Shown: positions 3,617-62,287 of the stretch, piece by piece
Position numbering within the stretch: position 1 is the first letter of the stretch
Layout: every line of letters starts with the position of its first letter
Assembly: GCA_946409635.1 (NCBI GenBank)
Contig: CAMJXD010000007.1
Coordinates: 1-64,000, forward strand
DNA: 64,000 nucleotides
Source of the DNA: an uncultured Prevotellaceae bacterium
GTDB lineage: Bacteria; Bacteroidota; Bacteroidia; Bacteroidales; Muribaculaceae
Reading direction: 5' to 3'
The notes under the pieces: generated by a model
Databases searched by the model: none
The model's input: only the letters and a program-made list of their open reading frames with translations
What the model was told of the DNA's origin: nothing
Program-made: the position numbers and the translations under genes

Positions 3617-4126
3617 ATGAGAAAGTTCATCAATTTATTATCTTTAGCGTTTGTGTCATTAATGGTGTCTTTATCATTGACGGCATGTGGCAATGACGAC
3701 GTGGAAGAGGATAATGCCGATGTTCGCTACGTCACGACCTATGAGGTCAAGGTAACGCCAATCACCTTGAGTTACTTCACGCTGACGGGAGACATTATCA
3801 ACGAGGAAGGTAAAATAACCGATATTGACTTGTCACATTCGGTTCACCATTTTTCGCCAATTACCACCTCAACAGTTCCTGACCATTTGCAGATCCGAGT
3901 CAATCTTGAACCTCTTCAGGGCTTAGATAAGTATTCCGGTTTTGTTGAATTAGGTATTGAAACAAAGAAGTACACGACGAGAGGTGAATATCTTGAAACG
4001 GTATATTCCAATCGCAAGGTAATGTGCTTTATCGTCGATTATCCCGCCGAAGAAATAGAAAGCGGCAACTTCGATTCACATTTCACTCTGGAAGCAATAA
4101 AGGATAACCAGGGCCGCTTGAACTAA
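3617..4126 (+). CDS. Hypothetical lipoprotein
   Basis: Signal peptide with lipobox LTAC-GNDD. Confidence 0.6.
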   Translation: MRKFINLLSLAFVSLMVSLSLTACGNDDVEEDNADVRYVTTYEVKVTPITLSYFTLTGDIINEEGKITDIDLSHSVHHFSPITTSTVPDHLQIRVNLEPLQGLDKYSGFVELGIETKKYTTRGEYLETVYSNRKVMCFIVDYPAEEIESGNFDSHFTLEAIKDNQGRLN

Positions 4127-49133: not shown

Positions 49134-50084
49134 ATGAAAGCCATTGTTGACCATATCGTTTTCTGGGTGCTCTACGGGTTGTGGTACGGGCTGTCGCTGC
49201 TGCCGTTGTGGTTTCACTACCTGATGAGCGACATCCTGTATGTGGTGGTGGCTCATGTGCTGCGTTACCGCCACCGCGTGATATGGAAGAACCTGAGCAA
49301 TGCCTATCCCGACAAGAGCGAGGCCGAGCGCAAGCGGCTGGAACGAGCGTTTTACCGCCACTTCTGTGACATCCTGGTCGAGACGGTAAAGTACACCTCG
49401 ATCAGCGACAAGAACATCATGCGGCGGGTGACCTTCAAGGGAACCGAGCGCGTGGCCGAGATTCTGGACAGCGGGCAGTCGGTGGCCCTGTTGCTGGGTC
49501 ATTACGGCAACTGGGAATGGGTGTCGTCGCTGGTGCTGTGGCTGCGGCCGCTGCTCAAGAACCAGCCGGCGATGGGCCAGATCTATCACCCGCTCGAGAA
49601 CGAGGTGGTCAACAACGTGGTGCTGAAGACCCGTGGCCGCATGGGGTCGGACAACGTCGCCATGAAGGAGACGCTGCGCTGGCTCATTGCCAACAAGAGC
49701 GCCGGGCGCCCCACCATCCTGGGTTATATCAACGACCAGGTGCCCACGTGGCACAACATCCACCACTGGCTCACCTTCCTCAACCAGGAGACGCCCGTGT
49801 TTACCGGCATTGAGCGCATTGTGCACACCCAGAACCAGGCCGCAGTCTATATCGACGTCAAGCGCATCGGCCGCGGGCGCTACGAGTGTGAATTCCAGAT
49901 CATCACGCGCGAGCCGTCGACGATGGGCGAGTATGAGCTCACCGACACCTACTTCGCCCTGATGGAACGCACCATCAACCGCGCACCGCAGTACTGGCTG
50001 TGGAGCCACAACCGCTGGAAGCGGACGCGCGAGGAGTTTGACCGCCGCTTCAAGGTCGTGAACGGACGCGTGGTCGAGAAGTGA
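49134..50084 (+). CDS. Lysophospholipid acyltransferase, LpxL/HtrB-like
   Basis: VALLLGHYGNWEWVSSL; IYHPLENEVVNNVVLKTRGRMGSDNVAM. Confidence 0.9.
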   Translation: MKAIVDHIVFWVLYGLWYGLSLLPLWFHYLMSDILYVVVAHVLRYRHRVIWKNLSNAYPDKSEAERKRLERAFYRHFCDILVETVKYTSISDKNIMRRVTFKGTERVAEILDSGQSVALLLGHYGNWEWVSSLVLWLRPLLKNQPAMGQIYHPLENEVVNNVVLKTRGRMGSDNVAMKETLRWLIANKSAGRPTILGYINDQVPTWHNIHHWLTFLNQETPVFTGIERIVHTQNQAAVYIDVKRIGRGRYECEFQIITREPSTMGEYELTDTYFALMERTINRAPQYWLWSHNRWKRTREEFDRRFKVVNGRVVEK

Positions 50085-50208
50085 TGCATTCGGGCAATCG
50101 TGAATATTCAGTAGTATTTGCCCGTTCGACAAAAAATGCCTACCTTTGCGGTAGTTAAATACTCATTAAACTTAAAACTAAAACTTACAACTTAAAAACT
50201 GATAAGCA

Positions 50209-51402
50209 ATGAACCGACTTTCGGACCGTATTAACGCACTGGCACCGAGTGCCACCCTGGCCATGTCGCAAAAGAGCAGCGAGCTGCGTGCTCAAGGCGT
50301 GGACGTGATCAACCTCTCGGTGGGAGAACCCGACTTCTTCACCCCCGACCACATCAAGGCAGCCGCCAAGCAGGCCGTCGATGACAACTTCTCGTTCTAT
50401 TCACCCGTGCCCGGTTACCTGTCGTTGCGTCAGGCCGTGTGTGGCAAGCTGCAGCGTGAGAACGGCTTGGAGTACACCCCCGATCAGATCGTGATAGGCA
50501 ACGGTGCCAAGCATGAGCTGTGCAACGTGATCATGGCGCTTATCAATCCCGGCGATGAGGTCATTATCCCGACGCCCGCATGGGTGAGCTATGTGCAGAT
50601 GGTCAACCTGACCGGCGGCAAGAGCGTCCTGTTGCCCTCGAGCATGGACAAGAACTTCAAGGTCACCGCTGCCGAGCTTGAGGCCGCCATTACCCCCAAG
50701 ACGCGACTGATTATCATCTGCTCGCCCAGCAACCCTAGCGGAGCCATCTACACTCGCGATGAGCTCAAGGCCATTGCCGACATGCTGGCTCGCCACCCCG
50801 AGGTGATGGTCATCGCCGACGAGATCTATGAGCACATCAACTATGTGGGCCGTCATGAGTCGCTGGCCCAGTTTGGTGACATCAAGGAGCAGGTGGTAAT
50901 CATCAACGGAGTGTCGAAGGCTTATGCCATGACCGGTTACCGCATCGGTTACATCGCCGCCCCCCTGTGGGTAGCCAAAGCCGTGACCAAGATGCAGGGA
51001 CAGTACACGAGCGGCGTGTCGTCGATTGCCCAAAAGGCAGCCGAGGCCGCCTATAACGGTTCGCAGGAGTGCGTTGAGCAGATGCGCGTCGCCTTTGAGC
51101 GTCGTCGCGACCTCATCGTGGGTCTGCTGCAGGAGATTCCCGGCATCGAGCTCAACATGCCCGACGGCGCCTTCTATGCGTTCCCCAAGGTTGAATCCTA
51201 TTACGGCAAGCGCTGCGGTGACACCGTCATCAACGACGACAACGACCTGGCCCTGTACCTGCTCAACGAGGCTCACGTCGCTACCGTGGCTGGAACCGCC
51301 TTCTGCTGCCCGGGCTACATCCGCCTGAGCTACGCTACCAGCGACGAGAATCTGCGCGAGGCCGCCAAGCGCATCGCCGCCGCTCTGGCCAAGCTCGCCT
51401 GA
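50209..51402 (+). CDS. PLP-dependent class I aminotransferase (AspB-like)
   Basis: INLSVGEPDFFTPDHIK; CSPSNPSGAIYT; INGVSKAYAMTGYRIGY. Confidence 0.93.
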   Translation: MNRLSDRINALAPSATLAMSQKSSELRAQGVDVINLSVGEPDFFTPDHIKAAAKQAVDDNFSFYSPVPGYLSLRQAVCGKLQRENGLEYTPDQIVIGNGAKHELCNVIMALINPGDEVIIPTPAWVSYVQMVNLTGGKSVLLPSSMDKNFKVTAAELEAAITPKTRLIIICSPSNPSGAIYTRDELKAIADMLARHPEVMVIADEIYEHINYVGRHESLAQFGDIKEQVVIINGVSKAYAMTGYRIGYIAAPLWVAKAVTKMQGQYTSGVSSIAQKAAEAAYNGSQECVEQMRVAFERRRDLIVGLLQEIPGIELNMPDGAFYAFPKVESYYGKRCGDTVINDDNDLALYLLNEAHVATVAGTAFCCPGYIRLSYATSDENLREAAKRIAAALAKLA

Positions 51403-51433
51403 TGCCGGCAAGACAAAGACAATCTATAAAAAA

Positions 51434-51464
51434 TGCAAGGACATGAGTGTCCTTGCATTTTTTA
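51434..51464 (+). terminator. Rho-independent terminator
   Basis: TGCAAGGACA-tgag-TGTCCTTGCA-TTTTTTATTTT. Confidence 0.85.
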
Positions 51465-51530
51465 TTTTGGCAATCTGGATATTTCAGGCGCAGCGGCCAG
51501 ATGCTTCATGAGAGGCTCTTTAGGGCAGAC

Positions 51531-52724
51531 TCATTTATTCAGCTGTTTTACAGCATCGGCCAGTTGTTGCATGGCCTGGGTGAGCACCGAGCGGGGAACG
51601 GCGACGTTGAGTCGCATGAAGCCGCTGCCTTCACGGCCAAACATTGCACCGTCGTTGAGGCCCAGGTGCGCGCGGTTGACAAACAGGTCGATGAGCGCGT
51701 CATGGTCGAGACCCAGCCCGGTGCAGTCAAGCCACACGAGGAACGAGGCCTGAGGCTTGATGGCCGTGATGCCGGGGATGTGCTGGCGGCAGTAATCAAC
51801 CACCATGTCGATGTTGCCCTCGATGTAGTCAAGGCACTGGGCAAGCCAGGCGGCGCCATGACGATAGGCGGCGCGGGTGGCTGTCATCGACAGGAAGTTG
51901 GGTGAACACTGCTCGTTGGCCTCGAGATGGTGGAAGAAGGGCTTGCGCAGGTCGGGGTTCTTAATGACACACCACGAGCTCACGATACCGGCTATGTTGA
52001 ACGTCTTGCTGGGAGCGCCCATCACCACGCCCACGGCCCGCGCGTCGTCGCTCACGGTGAGGAAGGAGGTGTGGTGTTGTCCCTTGAGCACCAAGTCGCC
52101 ATGGATCTCGTCGCTGAAGACTACCACGCCATATTTTCGGGCCAGCGAGGCCACCTGTCGTTGCACGTCGGCAGGCCAGGCTATGCCGATGGGGTTGTGG
52201 GGATTGCACAGCACCATCATAGCTGGCCGCTCCTGCTCAAAGATACGCTCAAGACCCACAAGGTCCATGCGGTAAAAGCCGTCGTCGGTCCTCACCAGCG
52301 GGTTGTTGACCACCATGCGGTTATTGCCTGTGATGAGCATCCTGAAGGGGTGGTAGACGGGCTGCTGAATGACAATCTTGTCGCCGGGGCGGGTGAAGTG
52401 GTTCAATGCCAGGCCGAAGCCGTTAACAATGCCGCCTATGAAGCAGACCTCATCGGTGGTGAATTCCAGGCCGTTGCGCTCGCGCTGCCAGTCGATTATC
52501 GACTGCCAGTAGTCCTCGAGCGGTACGCTGTAGCCATAGATGGGGTGCTCAGTAATGCGGCGGGCCAGCGCCTGGGTGATGTCGGGGCAAGCGGCAAAGC
52601 CCATATCGGCCACCCACAGCGGCAGCACATCGTCGCGGCCGAACATCTCCTTGCATCGGTCAGTCATCACACATCCGGTTCCATGCCGGTCAATCACGCG
52701 GTCAAAGTCATAAGTCTTGTCCAT
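51531..52724 (-). CDS. MalY/PatB family PLP-dependent protein (cystathionine beta-lyase-like)
   Basis: LPLWVADMGFAACPDI; CNPHNPIGIAW; SDEIHGDLV; PSKTFNIAGI. Confidence 0.92.
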   Translation of the reverse strand: MDKTYDFDRVIDRHGTGCVMTDRCKEMFGRDDVLPLWVADMGFAACPDITQALARRITEHPIYGYSVPLEDYWQSIIDWQRERNGLEFTTDEVCFIGGIVNGFGLALNHFTRPGDKIVIQQPVYHPFRMLITGNNRMVVNNPLVRTDDGFYRMDLVGLERIFEQERPAMMVLCNPHNPIGIAWPADVQRQVASLARKYGVVVFSDEIHGDLVLKGQHHTSFLTVSDDARAVGVVMGAPSKTFNIAGIVSSWCVIKNPDLRKPFFHHLEANEQCSPNFLSMTATRAAYRHGAAWLAQCLDYIEGNIDMVVDYCRQHIPGITAIKPQASFLVWLDCTGLGLDHDALIDLFVNRAHLGLNDGAMFGREGSGFMRLNVAVPRSVLTQAMQQLADAVKQLNK

Positions 52725-52893
52725 TATACACTGCAGTTTATCTAGTCAATTGGAGTGACAAAGTTACAGCTTTCTGCTTAAATAGTCAACATCTGGTTGC
52801 AGCCAAGTCGCAAGACGGGCAGATTTTTTCTGACGTGAACTGCGTCTGGGCCAGCTTGCACACAGCATGCAGGCCTGAATGATGACACAGTCG

Positions 52894-57930: not shown

Positions 57931-57987
57931 GGAATGATATACTATTTGTCCCCGATTATTTTTAGGAATGATATACTATTTGTCCCC
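57931..57987. repeat. 23-bp sequence repeated twice
   Basis: GGAATGATATACTATTTGTCCCC at 57931-57953 and 57965-57987. Confidence 0.85.
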
Positions 57988-58078
57988 AAATTCGCGAGGG
58001 CAGGGCAAACTTGTTCAATGATTATAATAATCTCGGTTGTCAATTTTGGTACACAAGAAAAAGCCAAACGGCTCATTA

Positions 58079-58115
58079 CAAGTCATTTGGCTTTCCTTCT
58101 CGTGACCCCGGTGGG
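58079..58115. repeat. Left copy of 37-bp direct repeat (displaced tRNA-Lys 3' end, att-like)
   Basis: CAAGTCATTTGGCTTTCCTTCTCGTGACCCCGGTGGG identical to 62190-62226; not followed by a tRNA body. Confidence 0.85.
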
Positions 58116-58224
58116 CTCTGATTCATCACATAGCATGACAATTATTGACATTATAACCGCCTGATTTCCATCAATTTCTAATGTTGGCACTATGTAAACG
58201 CGTGTCAACGGGCGCCATTAGGTG

Positions 58225-58647
58225 TCAATCTCGGTTGTCATTTTTGACAACAGTTTTTACGGCGTCGTTCGTCTCGCCGATGCCCTGGATACGGATGTAG
58301 TCCTCGGCAGTGAGCACGCCGGCACGGGTGCGTGTGGCCGGGCCTATGGCGAGCGTGAGCGACGAGGTCGCCCCGTCGACCATGCTGCGAGCCATGAGCT
58401 GCAGGATGACGTTGCTGTGGTCATCGACGTTGCGCTGCTGGATGTCGTAGAGGAAACGGTACTGCTGGAGCGTTTCCTTCCAGAAGCGGATGATGTTGTA
58501 CTCGGTCTCGCTGGTGGCGGTGGCCAGCAGGTCGGCGATGGCCTGGAGGATGGAGCCGACGGTCTCGGGCGAGATGCTTTCTTTCTCGGTCTCGACGCGG
58601 AATGCGGAGATCAACGATGTCAGTTGTTGGATGTCAATCATAATCAA
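58225..58647 (-). CDS. Phage-like hypothetical protein
   Basis: Low-complexity helical protein within the att-bounded segment; ORF MIMIDIQQLTSLISAFRVETEKESISPETVGSILQAIADLLA. Confidence 0.4.
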   Translation of the reverse strand: MIMIDIQQLTSLISAFRVETEKESISPETVGSILQAIADLLATATSETEYNIIRFWKETLQQYRFLYDIQQRNVDDHSNVILQLMARSMVDGATSSLTLAIGPATRTRAGVLTAEDYIRIQGIGETNDAVKTVVKNDNRD

Positions 58648-58740
58648 AATAGCTTTACGATTTTACGACGCAAAGCTACTTTGATTGAGCGGTGTGGTAA
58701 AAGACAAGAAAAAGCCTACCGAAGGCTTAATTATCTTTGA

Positions 58741-59472
58741 TTATATTAATGTTGCTTTCCTTCGAAAAATAATATATGATAATGCCCATGCTATTAGAGT
58801 GAATATTACATAGACATAGTTGTATGCAATCAGAATATCTTGATTCTTTGCCTGTAAAGCATAAAAGAACAGAGCAATTGAAATACCCACAATACATAAG
58901 AACGTTTTAATAAAAGGGAATTTCCGCCAATATGTGCTTCCAATCATAAAACATGATTGAACAGTTAAGAAAAACAAGAATACACTATTTTCACCTTTCG
59001 CAAACTCAATAAGTTTTTTTGTAACCGATATGTTCTCAATACTTTTTGTGGATTCTACAGAGAAGTGAAGAATAGCAACAAGGAGTTTTACCGATAATTC
59101 TGATAACAACAAAAATATAAATGGGAATAACAAAACGTATACAAACCACTCAATAATATACTTCTCAAACTTGGTGGTCGGGAAGCATATATAGGCTATT
59201 CTCGTTCTTCGATTTCTTAACTCCCGAAACATGATGCTAGCACTTAAGCAGCCAAATACAAATAACAAGAAGATGGTTATTTGCATTATCTCTGTGGTAT
59301 AATTAAGATTAGATTGAGGTCTCGATAAGATTGGTATAATTGCAAATATCAAGTACGAAAGCAACATTGTCGCAAACATCAATGCAGCATAATAAAGCAA
59401 TCGTCTGGCATTTTCGTGAATAAACTTACTGAATGCCATAAAAAAATGATTGAGTTTATTTTGTGAGTTCAT
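58741..59472 (-). CDS. ABC-2-like membrane permease
   Basis: Six hydrophobic segments; overlaps the 3' end of an ABC ATPase gene. Confidence 0.7.
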   Translation of the reverse strand: MNSQNKLNHFFMAFSKFIHENARRLLYYAALMFATMLLSYLIFAIIPILSRPQSNLNYTTEIMQITIFLLFVFGCLSASIMFRELRNRRTRIAYICFPTTKFEKYIIEWFVYVLLFPFIFLLLSELSVKLLVAILHFSVESTKSIENISVTKKLIEFAKGENSVFLFFLTVQSCFMIGSTYWRKFPFIKTFLCIVGISIALFFYALQAKNQDILIAYNYVYVIFTLIAWALSYIIFRRKATLI

Positions 59473-60295
59473 AATTAATAGTTTCTGCAATGCTTGGATT
59501 GTGTACCAACATATTATACAACATTTCCAAATCTATTCTCGTATTGCTCCGTGCCGCTCGTAATGAGAATTTTCTGTTCGCATCTTGTAGAACTGCCAAG
59601 CTGTTTCTGTCACTCATTTGTGCCTCATCATTCTCTATAACAAATCTGCGTGATAAAGATTCGCAATCAGTTTGAAGAATTATATGTTTGTCATGTAAGA
59701 TAACAACATCATCAAACAAAACATCAACATCATTAATCTGATGAGTGGAAAGAATTATACATTTGTCACAATTCTCCTTGGTTTGAGCAATGAAGTCCCG
59801 GAATTGTTGTTTGCTTACAATATCCAACCCGTTTGTCGGCTCATCAAGGATAAGTAAGTCGGTATTCGTAGAATGAGCAAAACATAAATAAAATTTCTTC
59901 TTTTGCCCCATCGACAACTCTCCTAATCTATTATCGTAATCAATTCCAAAAAGGCTGAGATATTGAAGGAAATCATCTCGGCTGAACTTTGGGTAGAATG
60001 GAGCGTTTATTTTCAGATAGTTTTTAATACTGATATTTGGTAAATCAAATTCTTCAGGAACAAAGAAAAAGTCTTCAATCTTATTCTGCCAATTTCCATT
60101 GGCTGAATTCTTATATGAGATTGTTCCTTGTTGTGGACGCAATAAGTTGGTAATCAAATATAATAATGTGGATTTGCCGACACCATTCATTCCCAACAGT
60201 CCATAAACACGAGAAGGCATCAATAGAAGATTGATGTCTTGGAGTATATATTTTTGTTTCTTGTATCCGAATGATACATTCTCCAATCGAACCAT
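59456..60295 (-). CDS. ABC transporter ATP-binding protein
   Basis: LLGMNGVGKSTLLYLI (Walker A), LSMGQKKKFYLCFA (signature), DLLILDEPTNGLD (Walker B). Confidence 0.93.
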   Translation of the reverse strand: MVRLENVSFGYKKQKYILQDINLLLMPSRVYGLLGMNGVGKSTLLYLITNLLRPQQGTISYKNSANGNWQNKIEDFFFVPEEFDLPNISIKNYLKINAPFYPKFSRDDFLQYLSLFGIDYDNRLGELSMGQKKKFYLCFAHSTNTDLLILDEPTNGLDIVSKQQFRDFIAQTKENCDKCIILSTHQINDVDVLFDDVVILHDKHIILQTDCESLSRRFVIENDEAQMSDRNSLAVLQDANRKFSLRAARSNTRIDLEMLYNMLVHNPSIAETINYELTK

Positions 60296-60339
60296 TTTTT
60301 AGAATGATATAATATTGATGAACAGTTGTAGACGATAAA

Positions 60340-61428
60340 TTATTGTTCAGTATCTTCTTTTACAGACTTATTGTGTTGCAGATAAAAGATTTCTTTTTGC
60401 TGCTCAATCTCACGTCTCAAGACTTCTTCCGACGGCAGGTAAGTCAAATACTTGGCGGCATAGAGTTGCTTGCTGTCATGAAGCACGGAGTATTGTGCTA
60501 TGTCTTTACTTGTGTCGGAGCAAAGCAGCAAGCCTATGGTTGGATTGTCTCCGTCTGTTCGCTTCAAGTCATCGAACATTCGTACATACATATCCATCTG
60601 TCCGACATCTTGATGGGTCACTCGTTTTGTTTTGAGGTCGATAAGTACGTAGCATTTCAATACCACATTGTAGAATACCAAGTCAACAAAGAAATCGCCG
60701 GCATCGGTGCTAATGTGGTATTGCTCGGCCATGAATGCGAATCCACGACCCATCTCAAGCAAAAACTCTTTCAGGTGACGGATGATAGCTTTCTCGAGTT
60801 CGGTCTCGGTGAACGAAGAGTTGGACGGAAGTTGCAGGAACTCAGCTACGACAGGATCTTTGAGAAAACCTTGTGGCTCATCTTTCAATGGTGCGGTGAG
60901 CTGTAGCATTTCTTCAATTACGGCCTCTTTCTTGGGTGATTGCAGTAATCGGTGATAATACTGAGAGCCAACGTTACGTGCCAAAGTACGCACACTCCAC
61001 GATTCTGCAGAGGCTTCTCTAATATACCAGTATCTTGCGTCTTCACTTGTGACCGACAATACAGTGCGATAATGTGACCATTTAAGATTTGGTACACGCG
61101 TGTACCAAATTTCCAAATCGCTGAAGCATAGATACAATTGACGGTAATTGCGCAAATCACGCGCAGAAAAGCCGTGGGCGTATTCCAATGACAACTCTTC
61201 GGCAAGCAGCGTTATCAGTCTGCTACCATATTCAGCCCTGCGCTGGCCATGCTGTTCTTCTTCAACAATGCGCTTGCCAATAAGCCAATACGTATGAATG
61301 GCAACTGTGTTAACTTTATCGTACGCTTCACGTAACCCACGCTCAACAATTAGTTTCACATCGTCAACTAATTGCGTGGGCAACACTTGTTTATCTTGCG
61401 ACTTAATGAGGTTCTTGTTTTCTTCCAT
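60340..61428 (-). CDS. PDDEXK nuclease domain protein (YhcG / DUF1016-like)
   Basis: VNTVAIHTYWLIGKRIVEEEQHGQRRAEYGSRLI; YHISTDAGDFFVDLVFYNVVLKCYVLIDLKTKRVTHQDVGQMDMYV. Confidence 0.88.
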   Translation of the reverse strand: MEENKNLIKSQDKQVLPTQLVDDVKLIVERGLREAYDKVNTVAIHTYWLIGKRIVEEEQHGQRRAEYGSRLITLLAEELSLEYAHGFSARDLRNYRQLYLCFSDLEIWYTRVPNLKWSHYRTVLSVTSEDARYWYIREASAESWSVRTLARNVGSQYYHRLLQSPKKEAVIEEMLQLTAPLKDEPQGFLKDPVVAEFLQLPSNSSFTETELEKAIIRHLKEFLLEMGRGFAFMAEQYHISTDAGDFFVDLVFYNVVLKCYVLIDLKTKRVTHQDVGQMDMYVRMFDDLKRTDGDNPTIGLLLCSDTSKDIAQYSVLHDSKQLYAAKYLTYLPSEEVLRREIEQQKEIFYLQHNKSVKEDTEQ

Positions 61429-61464
61429 AATACAAAGATACGACAAATCTCGTAATTAAAACGA

Positions 61465-61902
61465 CTATACATGACTTTTATTACATCGCCGTGCGAAATC
61501 GCTCAAAGTGCCAGTGAACGAGCGTCCTATGTTATCTTCATAAAACTCTTTGATATTCATCACCGAAGCATAATACTTTCGCCTGAACCACTTGCGGCGT
61601 TGCCGCACTTTGGCCCTGCCGATGTCACCGCTATTGCCACGGGGCGTTTCACGACCTGTGCCATAGTCCTGCCACAAGCCGTATTCGAGAAAGGCTTGCG
61701 AGAGCGAGACCTCGAAAAAGCGTCCGTCGGCACGCATGGCGATGGCTTTGGGCGAAGCCAGCAAAGCCCCGGTGTCAATGACTCCCAACAATGTGATTTG
61801 CTCCTGCCAAATCTTGATCATTGTGTCATTGAAAGCGGTGACGAACTTCTGGCGCTCCTGTAGGGCCTGTTGTTCGGTAGGCTTATTCCCATTCATCGGC
61901 AT
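61465..61902 (-). CDS. Phage-like small protein (virion/tail-associated type)
   Basis: 146-codon ORF with YGLWQDYGTGRETPRGNSGDIG, resembling phage morphogenesis proteins. Confidence 0.45.
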   Translation of the reverse strand: MPMNGNKPTEQQALQERQKFVTAFNDTMIKIWQEQITLLGVIDTGALLASPKAIAMRADGRFFEVSLSQAFLEYGLWQDYGTGRETPRGNSGDIGRAKVRQRRKWFRRKYYASVMNIKEFYEDNIGRSFTGTLSDFARRCNKSHV

Positions 61903-62164
61903 TGTATCTCAGGTCGGTATAGACATCTACGGCTATCTGGAAGTAGGCGCAGGCACATCCGCTGAAGAAGTATCGGTCAATCTCGTTGAACGATATCCTC
62001 GGGTCGAGGTAGATGCAGTGCTGCTCCAGCTTGGTCTTCTCCAGGATCAGCAGCGACATGAACTGGCGGAACAGCTCGCGCAGGGTCTCCATGCAGCGGT
62101 TGCGGGCCGCCATGTCGTCGATCTTGTGGCGCTTTGCCAGGGATAAAAAGCCAACGGTTGACAC
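61883..62164 (-). CDS. Phage-like small hypothetical protein
   Basis: ORF overlapping 61465-61902; adjacent to tRNA-Lys. Confidence 0.4.
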   Translation of the reverse strand: MSTVGFLSLAKRHKIDDMAARNRCMETLRELFRQFMSLLILEKTKLEQHCIYLDPRISFNEIDRYFFSGCACAYFQIAVDVYTDLRYNADEWE

Positions 62165-62169
62165 AACGA

Positions 62170-62205
62170 AAAAGCCAAATGGCTCATTTCAAGTCATTTG
62201 GCTTT
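62170..62205 (-). terminator. tRNA-Lys terminator hairpin
   Basis: AAAGCCAAATG...CATTTGGCTTT. Confidence 0.65.
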
Positions 62206-62212
62206 CCTTCTC

Positions 62213-62287
62213 GTGACCCCGGTGGGACTCGAACCCACGACCCATTGATTAAGAGTCAATTGCTCTACCAACTGAGCTACGGAGTCA
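62213..62287 (-). tRNA. tRNA-Lys(CTT)
   Basis: TGACTCCGTAGCTCAGTTGGTAGAGCAATTGACTCTTAATCAATGGGTCGTGGGTTCGAGTCCCACCGGGGTCA on minus strand; CTCTTAA anticodon loop; TTCGAGTC T-loop. Confidence 0.95.

Follow-up and report, generated by a model that had tools for sequence, protein, structure and literature searches.

A probable integrase-less cassette in an array at the 3' end of tRNA-Lys(CTT) in an uncultured Muribaculaceae bacterium

What lies between a tRNA gene and a displaced copy of its own 3' end, and how can it have come to be there if no integrase is encoded in between? The question is raised by a locus in a contig of an uncultured Muribaculaceae bacterium (CAMJXD010000007.1, positions 1 to 64,000; this 64,000-nucleotide stretch is the window), where the tRNA-Lys(CTT) gene found with ARAGORN (62213..62286, minus strand, 3' end at 62213) is the integration target. 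A repeat search revealed two copies of a 59-nt sequence, 97% identical and with a start-to-start spacing of 4111: the right copy (REP_R, 62168..62226) comprises a terminator hairpin and the final 14 nt of tRNA-Lys, and the left copy (REP_L, 58057..58115) the hairpin and a displaced 14-nt tRNA 3' fragment. Inside the 59-nt repeat sits an exact 37-bp pair (58079-58115 and 62190-62226), which is far beyond what chance would account for within 7 kb. A preliminary description of this DNA had already reported the perfect 37-bp repeat, the last ~14 nt of tRNA-Lys within it, the restriction of the tRNA to the right copy and a wider, imperfect repeat of about 60 bp including the terminator hairpin. All of this was borne out, the tRNA portion being exactly 14 nt (62213-62226). 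The outer part of the repeat folds on the tRNA strand as a strong hairpin (−17.2 kcal/mol, z −4.8, in REP_R and −18.3 kcal/mol, z −4.3, in the other copy), which is the terminator of tRNA-Lys and yet is not native to this tRNA. In the comparison set, which consisted of 101 genomes of this Muribaculaceae genus (MAGs, one per species; the genus presumably lives in the ruminant gut), insert-free relatives (L124, L125, L127, L128) have unrelated hairpins behind tRNA-Lys, and the terminator therefore most likely comes in with the element.

The repeats are followed inward by conserved element ends. LE (58116..58251, plus strand), as seen in an alignment of 32 units, is an attachment arm of ~136 bp with TGTCA-type repeats and a GGTTGTCATTTTTGACAACC hairpin. 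This hairpin, GTTGTCA-TTTT-TGACAAC, closes LE at 58234..58251 (plus strand) and is followed by a T-run. There are 5.2 TGTCA/TGACA motifs per LE versus 0.29 in mononucleotide shuffles. RE, the right element end (62142..62167), contains GGTTGACACAAC, an inverted TGTCA-type site, and is kept in other units. The LE hairpin pattern was matched 52 times, in 26 of the 101 genus genomes (reversed control, 0), and LE occurs in 29 of 397 family genomes and in one of the 30 Muribaculaceae genera sampled, i.e., in this genus only. That LE is a phage-borne site was considered and rejected, both exact LE-type patterns having 0 matches in IMG/VR; a short hairpin, CGGTTGTCATTTTGACAACC, is present in one IMG/VR contig of 152,748 bases (L353, 962-981). 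Most units are joined to the tRNA core in the same way, and some REP copies are without LE or have a different one, as in the case of DUF4143C. In several species an LE-type hairpin also precedes a gene that resembles those for ECF sigma factors (L209 729, L211 3596, L212 1469, L340, L341, L344), in some without a clear tRNA core; these may be further insertions or a common regulatory motif.

To the left of REP_L, positions 58011..58056 are right-end sequence of a further unit, 82–90% identical to L117, L149, L185, L187, L192 and L196 and resembling the right ends of GH9 and LRR cassettes; a search for the LE belonging to this unit did not find one. Just left of the element there is also an exact 23-nt tandem repeat, GGAATGATATACTATTTGTCCCC, at 57931-57953 and 57965-57987. 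The aminotransferase-like genes (50001-52727) that adjoin tRNA-Lys in relatives are ~10 kb off in this genome, and their orientation fits an inversion of ~52.8-62.4 kb, or a misassembly.

About one third of the 101 genus genomes have comparable inserts, one to four in number, at the same tRNA-Lys 3' end; between them stands the same repeat, usually together with LE (with REP and/or LE as query, matches were obtained in 38 of the 101, weak and dispersed matches counted in). The empty sites and elements with the same ends for which the preliminary description had proposed to look were both found: tRNA-Lys is without insert in G018, G026 and G032, and elements with the same ends sit at the tRNA-Lys of other relatives. 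Nor do all relatives carry the same 4.1 kb, an outcome that would have spoken against an integrated element, for their contents differ. The same phage fragment with other contents in its gene slot is present in G033, G006, G019, G007 and G017, and different inserts in G035, G025, G036 and G002. Arrays contain up to four intervals, as in G124, where REP is found at 3969, 7948, 9582 and 12592 and at the tRNA; two or more units are present in G100, G102, G107, G116 and G093. The units are mostly 1.7–4 kb long, and several intervals are 4–10 kb long with several genes. No integrase was found within the units examined, and the integrases found in array-bearing genomes lie outside the array stretches. 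One location, variable cassettes and tRNA 3'-end repeats, which are the features of an additive flexible genomic island, are thus found together.

In the unit in the window (58057-62226), the genes are on the minus strand, and there is no integrase among the annotated ORFs. From left to right they encode p1 (58225..58647), the N-terminal fragment of a ~500-aa prophage protein (97% DNA identity to the prophage of G009); an integral membrane protein (58741..59490) with a homologue at the corresponding position of the G010 prophage; an ABC transporter ATPase (59456..60295; PF00005, 3.7e-21); a DUF1016/YhcG PDDEXK nuclease (60340..61446) in which both the DUF1016_N and the YhcG_C domain are present (PF06250, 1.4e-52; PF17761, 9.1e-39); p5 (61465..61902), a prophage-module protein syntenic in the G009 and G010 prophages; and p6 (61883..62164), the C-terminal fragment of a ~170-aa prophage protein. 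The membrane protein, which has no Pfam match above the cut-off, is likely the permease partner of the ABC ATPase. The DUF1016 protein matches the PADLOC phage-defence candidate PDC-S02 (1.2e-131), and its gene is likely to have an anti-virus (defence) function. Relative to G010, the DUF1016 gene has 99 synonymous versus 21 nonsynonymous codon changes and the ABC ATPase gene 49 versus 24, and because synonymous changes predominate both genes look maintained.

An HMM search of p1, p5 and p6, which had been suggested as a check, gave no significant match to PHROGs or Pfam; their phage identity was settled instead by prophage synteny. In the prophage-like loci of G009 and G010 the order p6, p5, p1 is kept with longer p6 and p1, and these loci also hold tape-measure, amidase and holin-like genes; that of G010 is 88% identical to 58517-62132, the DUF1016-ABC genes included. 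Phage homology begins within p1 at 58263, directly after LE, and stops within p6 at 62141. The cassette therefore carries an internal prophage fragment, cut at 58263 (p1) and near 62141 (p6). The slot between p5 and p1 contains different genes in different prophages and cassettes; in prophages of the genus (L143, 16125-16823; L145, 10866-13572) it can be occupied by DUF1016 together with an ABC pair, or by other membrane proteins. A decayed prophage native to tRNA-Lys was considered and rejected, since the homologous prophage of G009 sits, with its own integrase, beside tRNA-Ser and tRNA-Arg(TCT). The preliminary description was therefore right in postulating an integrated element, as indicated by the displaced 3' fragment on the left, the empty sites and the same ends elsewhere, but its further assumption, the loss of an integrase and of most phage genes, is not supported: the phage pieces are an internal fragment of a prophage located elsewhere in relatives, and absence of an integrase is the normal state across the whole insert family.

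Across species the cargo includes GH9, three types of DUF4143 ATPase (PADLOC PDC-S01), a BspA-type LRR protein with dockerin, an outer-membrane beta-barrel protein (porin), an FGE-sulfatase domain protein, the prophage fragment and an AAA protein that partly resembles IetA models. Its order is shuffled between species, the same cargo having different neighbours and positions. For example, GH9 adjoins the tRNA in G025, G102 and G095 and is farther out in G124 and G093. In G124, G107 and G093 the DUF4143C unit (1693, 1693 and 1694 bp) is similar almost from end to end, with its end sequence; its right-hand neighbours in the three species are LRR, DUF4143A and porin. Cargo identity exceeds that of the flanking aminotransferase gene in each of the 58 genome pairs (for GH9, mean identity 96.5% versus 83.8% for the flank; at 4-fold sites, cargo class means of 80–94% versus 38–65% for the flank), and LE, counted separately, is above flank identity in 9 of 10. 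Because it is far more alike than the gene beside the tRNA, the cargo must have moved horizontally between species. Linked inheritance of LE and cargo is not supported, LE similarity being unrelated to the cargo: LE identity is 83.8% between units with the same cargo and 83.8% between units with unrelated cargo, and in the phage-fragment cassettes identity changes sharply at the LE-cargo border. Cassettes and LE are therefore not strictly linked, and much of the movement may be due to homologous recombination. The discordance implies either that recombination takes place within the repeats or that LE changes faster, which is why the mechanism is stated below as a combination of integrase insertion and homologous exchange.

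Integrases associated with such ends are found elsewhere in the genus. In G019, G036, G076, G095 and G032, tyrosine integrase genes have the LE hairpin ~150 bp away on their 5' side, and in the integrase-bearing elements of tRNA-Phe and tRNA-Arg a related LE directly precedes the integrase gene. A phage integrase domain was identified in the integrase, along with a weak match to an arm-binding domain (PF17293). At tRNA-Phe, G100 contains a unit without integrase between the copies of a perfect 59-bp repeat, and G036 the integrase-bearing form, its LE being, by eye, clearly like that of G100. Further LE copies are preceded by tRNA-Arg(ACG) 3' ends. In tRNA-Lys itself there are two integrase-bearing elements (G106, G078), with different ends. 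LE is thus kin to the LE of integrase-bearing elements, and among the integrase loci of the genus genomes no element and no tRNA-Lys ancestor with the tRNA-Lys-type LE was found.

From these findings we consider it probable that 58057-62226 is one non-autonomous integrative cassette of a tRNA-Lys(CTT) array, supplied with integrase in trans and partly reshuffled by homologous recombination. Its attachment site, composed of RE, terminator hairpin, 14-nt tRNA core and LE, is conserved, and no integrase is encoded. A tyrosine integrase of the kind seen in integrase-bearing elements of the same genus would act in trans, inserting a circular form at the tRNA 3' end; each insertion would rebuild the tRNA and its terminator and shift older units outward, so that the array would grow by accretion, and homologous recombination between REP-LE segments probably reshuffles the units further. 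The cargo in the window would then be a piece of captured prophage, with the DUF1016 nuclease and the ABC transporter in its gene slot. The proposal is favoured by the arrays, the varying cargo positions, the horizontal cargo, the location of integrases outside the array stretches, the LE near integrases, the empty sites and the combination of an arm-binding domain in the integrase family with an LE rich in TGTCA repeats. It is weakened by the failure to find an integrase-bearing element with the tRNA-Lys type of LE, by the different ends of the integrase-bearing elements in tRNA-Lys (G106, G078), by the independence of LE identity from cargo, by the several multi-gene intervals of 4–10 kb and by the repeats without LE. 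More tentatively, there could be a whole integron-like system on tRNA attachment sites, a general class of units without integrase that falls into subfamilies, one for each tRNA (Lys, Phe, Arg). Each subfamily would have arm repeats of its own, all would have a common LE hairpin, and the units would capture arbitrary genes (phage-defence candidates and prophage gene slots among them) and be moved between species by the integrases of resident elements.

Could the units instead be independently decayed ICE or prophage remnants that have lost their integrase and stacked in tandem at tRNA-Lys? Such accretion of CIMEs is a known process at tRNA sites (PMC5704250), integrase-bearing elements do enter tRNA-Lys (G106, G078), and units of large size and mixed content exist (G102, G116). 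However, the phage pieces derive from a prophage at another tRNA, and units of reduced size are found in several species, highly similar and with one and the same LE-cargo junction, which indicates that they were already reduced when they spread. We therefore regard this explanation as unlikely. Slightly less likely still is that a few ancient insertions were followed by gain, loss and interspecies exchange of cargo driven by the REP-LE segments alone, no integrase being active today. The independence of LE similarity from cargo and host and the sharp identity change at the LE-cargo border are what this explanation would predict. Against it are the DUF4143C units, which are alike as wholes with their end sequence, the similar unit at tRNA-Phe and the LE at tRNA-Arg, which point to site-specific insertion, and the junction at the tRNA core shared by most units.

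The preliminary description also raised the possibility that REP_L is what is left of a second, tandem tRNA-Lys gene; the DNA between the two copies would then be ordinary chromosome. This is very improbable. Tandem tRNA genes do exist near tRNA-Lys in some relatives, but past the 14-nt core the left copy runs into LE, which is conserved in about 30 units, and the stretch is missing from relatives.

If true, this reading would explain how small genomic islands continue to move without a mobility gene, a recurrent puzzle for additive islands, and it provides a compact signature for finding such islands, namely a tRNA 3' end, a hairpin and arm repeats. Since two of PADLOC's candidate defence families (PDC-S01 and PDC-S02) are represented in the cargo, the arrays may allow gut Bacteroidales to swap phage defence one gene at a time. 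In the open-licence literature no paper on a tRNA-Lys cassette system was found. Elements of this kind are already known as additive genomic islands and CIMEs; new are the small self-contained cassettes with conserved arms.

Like integron gene cassettes, the units form an array of interchangeable small gene units with the integrase supplied elsewhere; unlike them, they use a tRNA 3' end with flanking arms rather than attC/attI, and no array-proximal integrase was seen. The attC core GTTRRRY is not present, for as read from the sequence the repeats consist of tRNA core and terminator and the LE hairpin reads GTTGTCA. Tycheposons (4–200 kb, with recombinase; PMC10872708) are similar in tRNA target, cargo carriage and relation to tyrosine recombinases, whereas the units described here are mostly 1.7–4 kb and without recombinase. 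At ssrA of Dehalococcoides many islands share one RNA gene, cargo and integration parts have discordant histories, and 16 of 31 islands have a module of integration-associated genes (PMC3146451); by contrast, no unit examined here holds an integration module. Streptococcal CIMEs, known from the ICE-CIME system, retain their flanking att sites, lack integration and transfer genes and stack at the target gene (PMC5704250). Here, too, attL and attR are kept and integration and transfer genes are absent, but the units are small, are found again in intact form across species and for the most part contain one to a few genes instead of ICE remnants. In the additive flexible genomic islands of Alteromonas and 'Ca. 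Methylopumilus', where the repeats of fGI-2 are the last 20 nt of tRNA-Lys(ctt) (PMC10872708, PMC4119200), variable cassettes are likewise added at one tRNA between tRNA 3'-end repeats. The tRNA-Lys units differ from these in that each has a defined ~136-bp arm related to the arm of integrase-bearing elements and in that their interspecies transfer has been measured.
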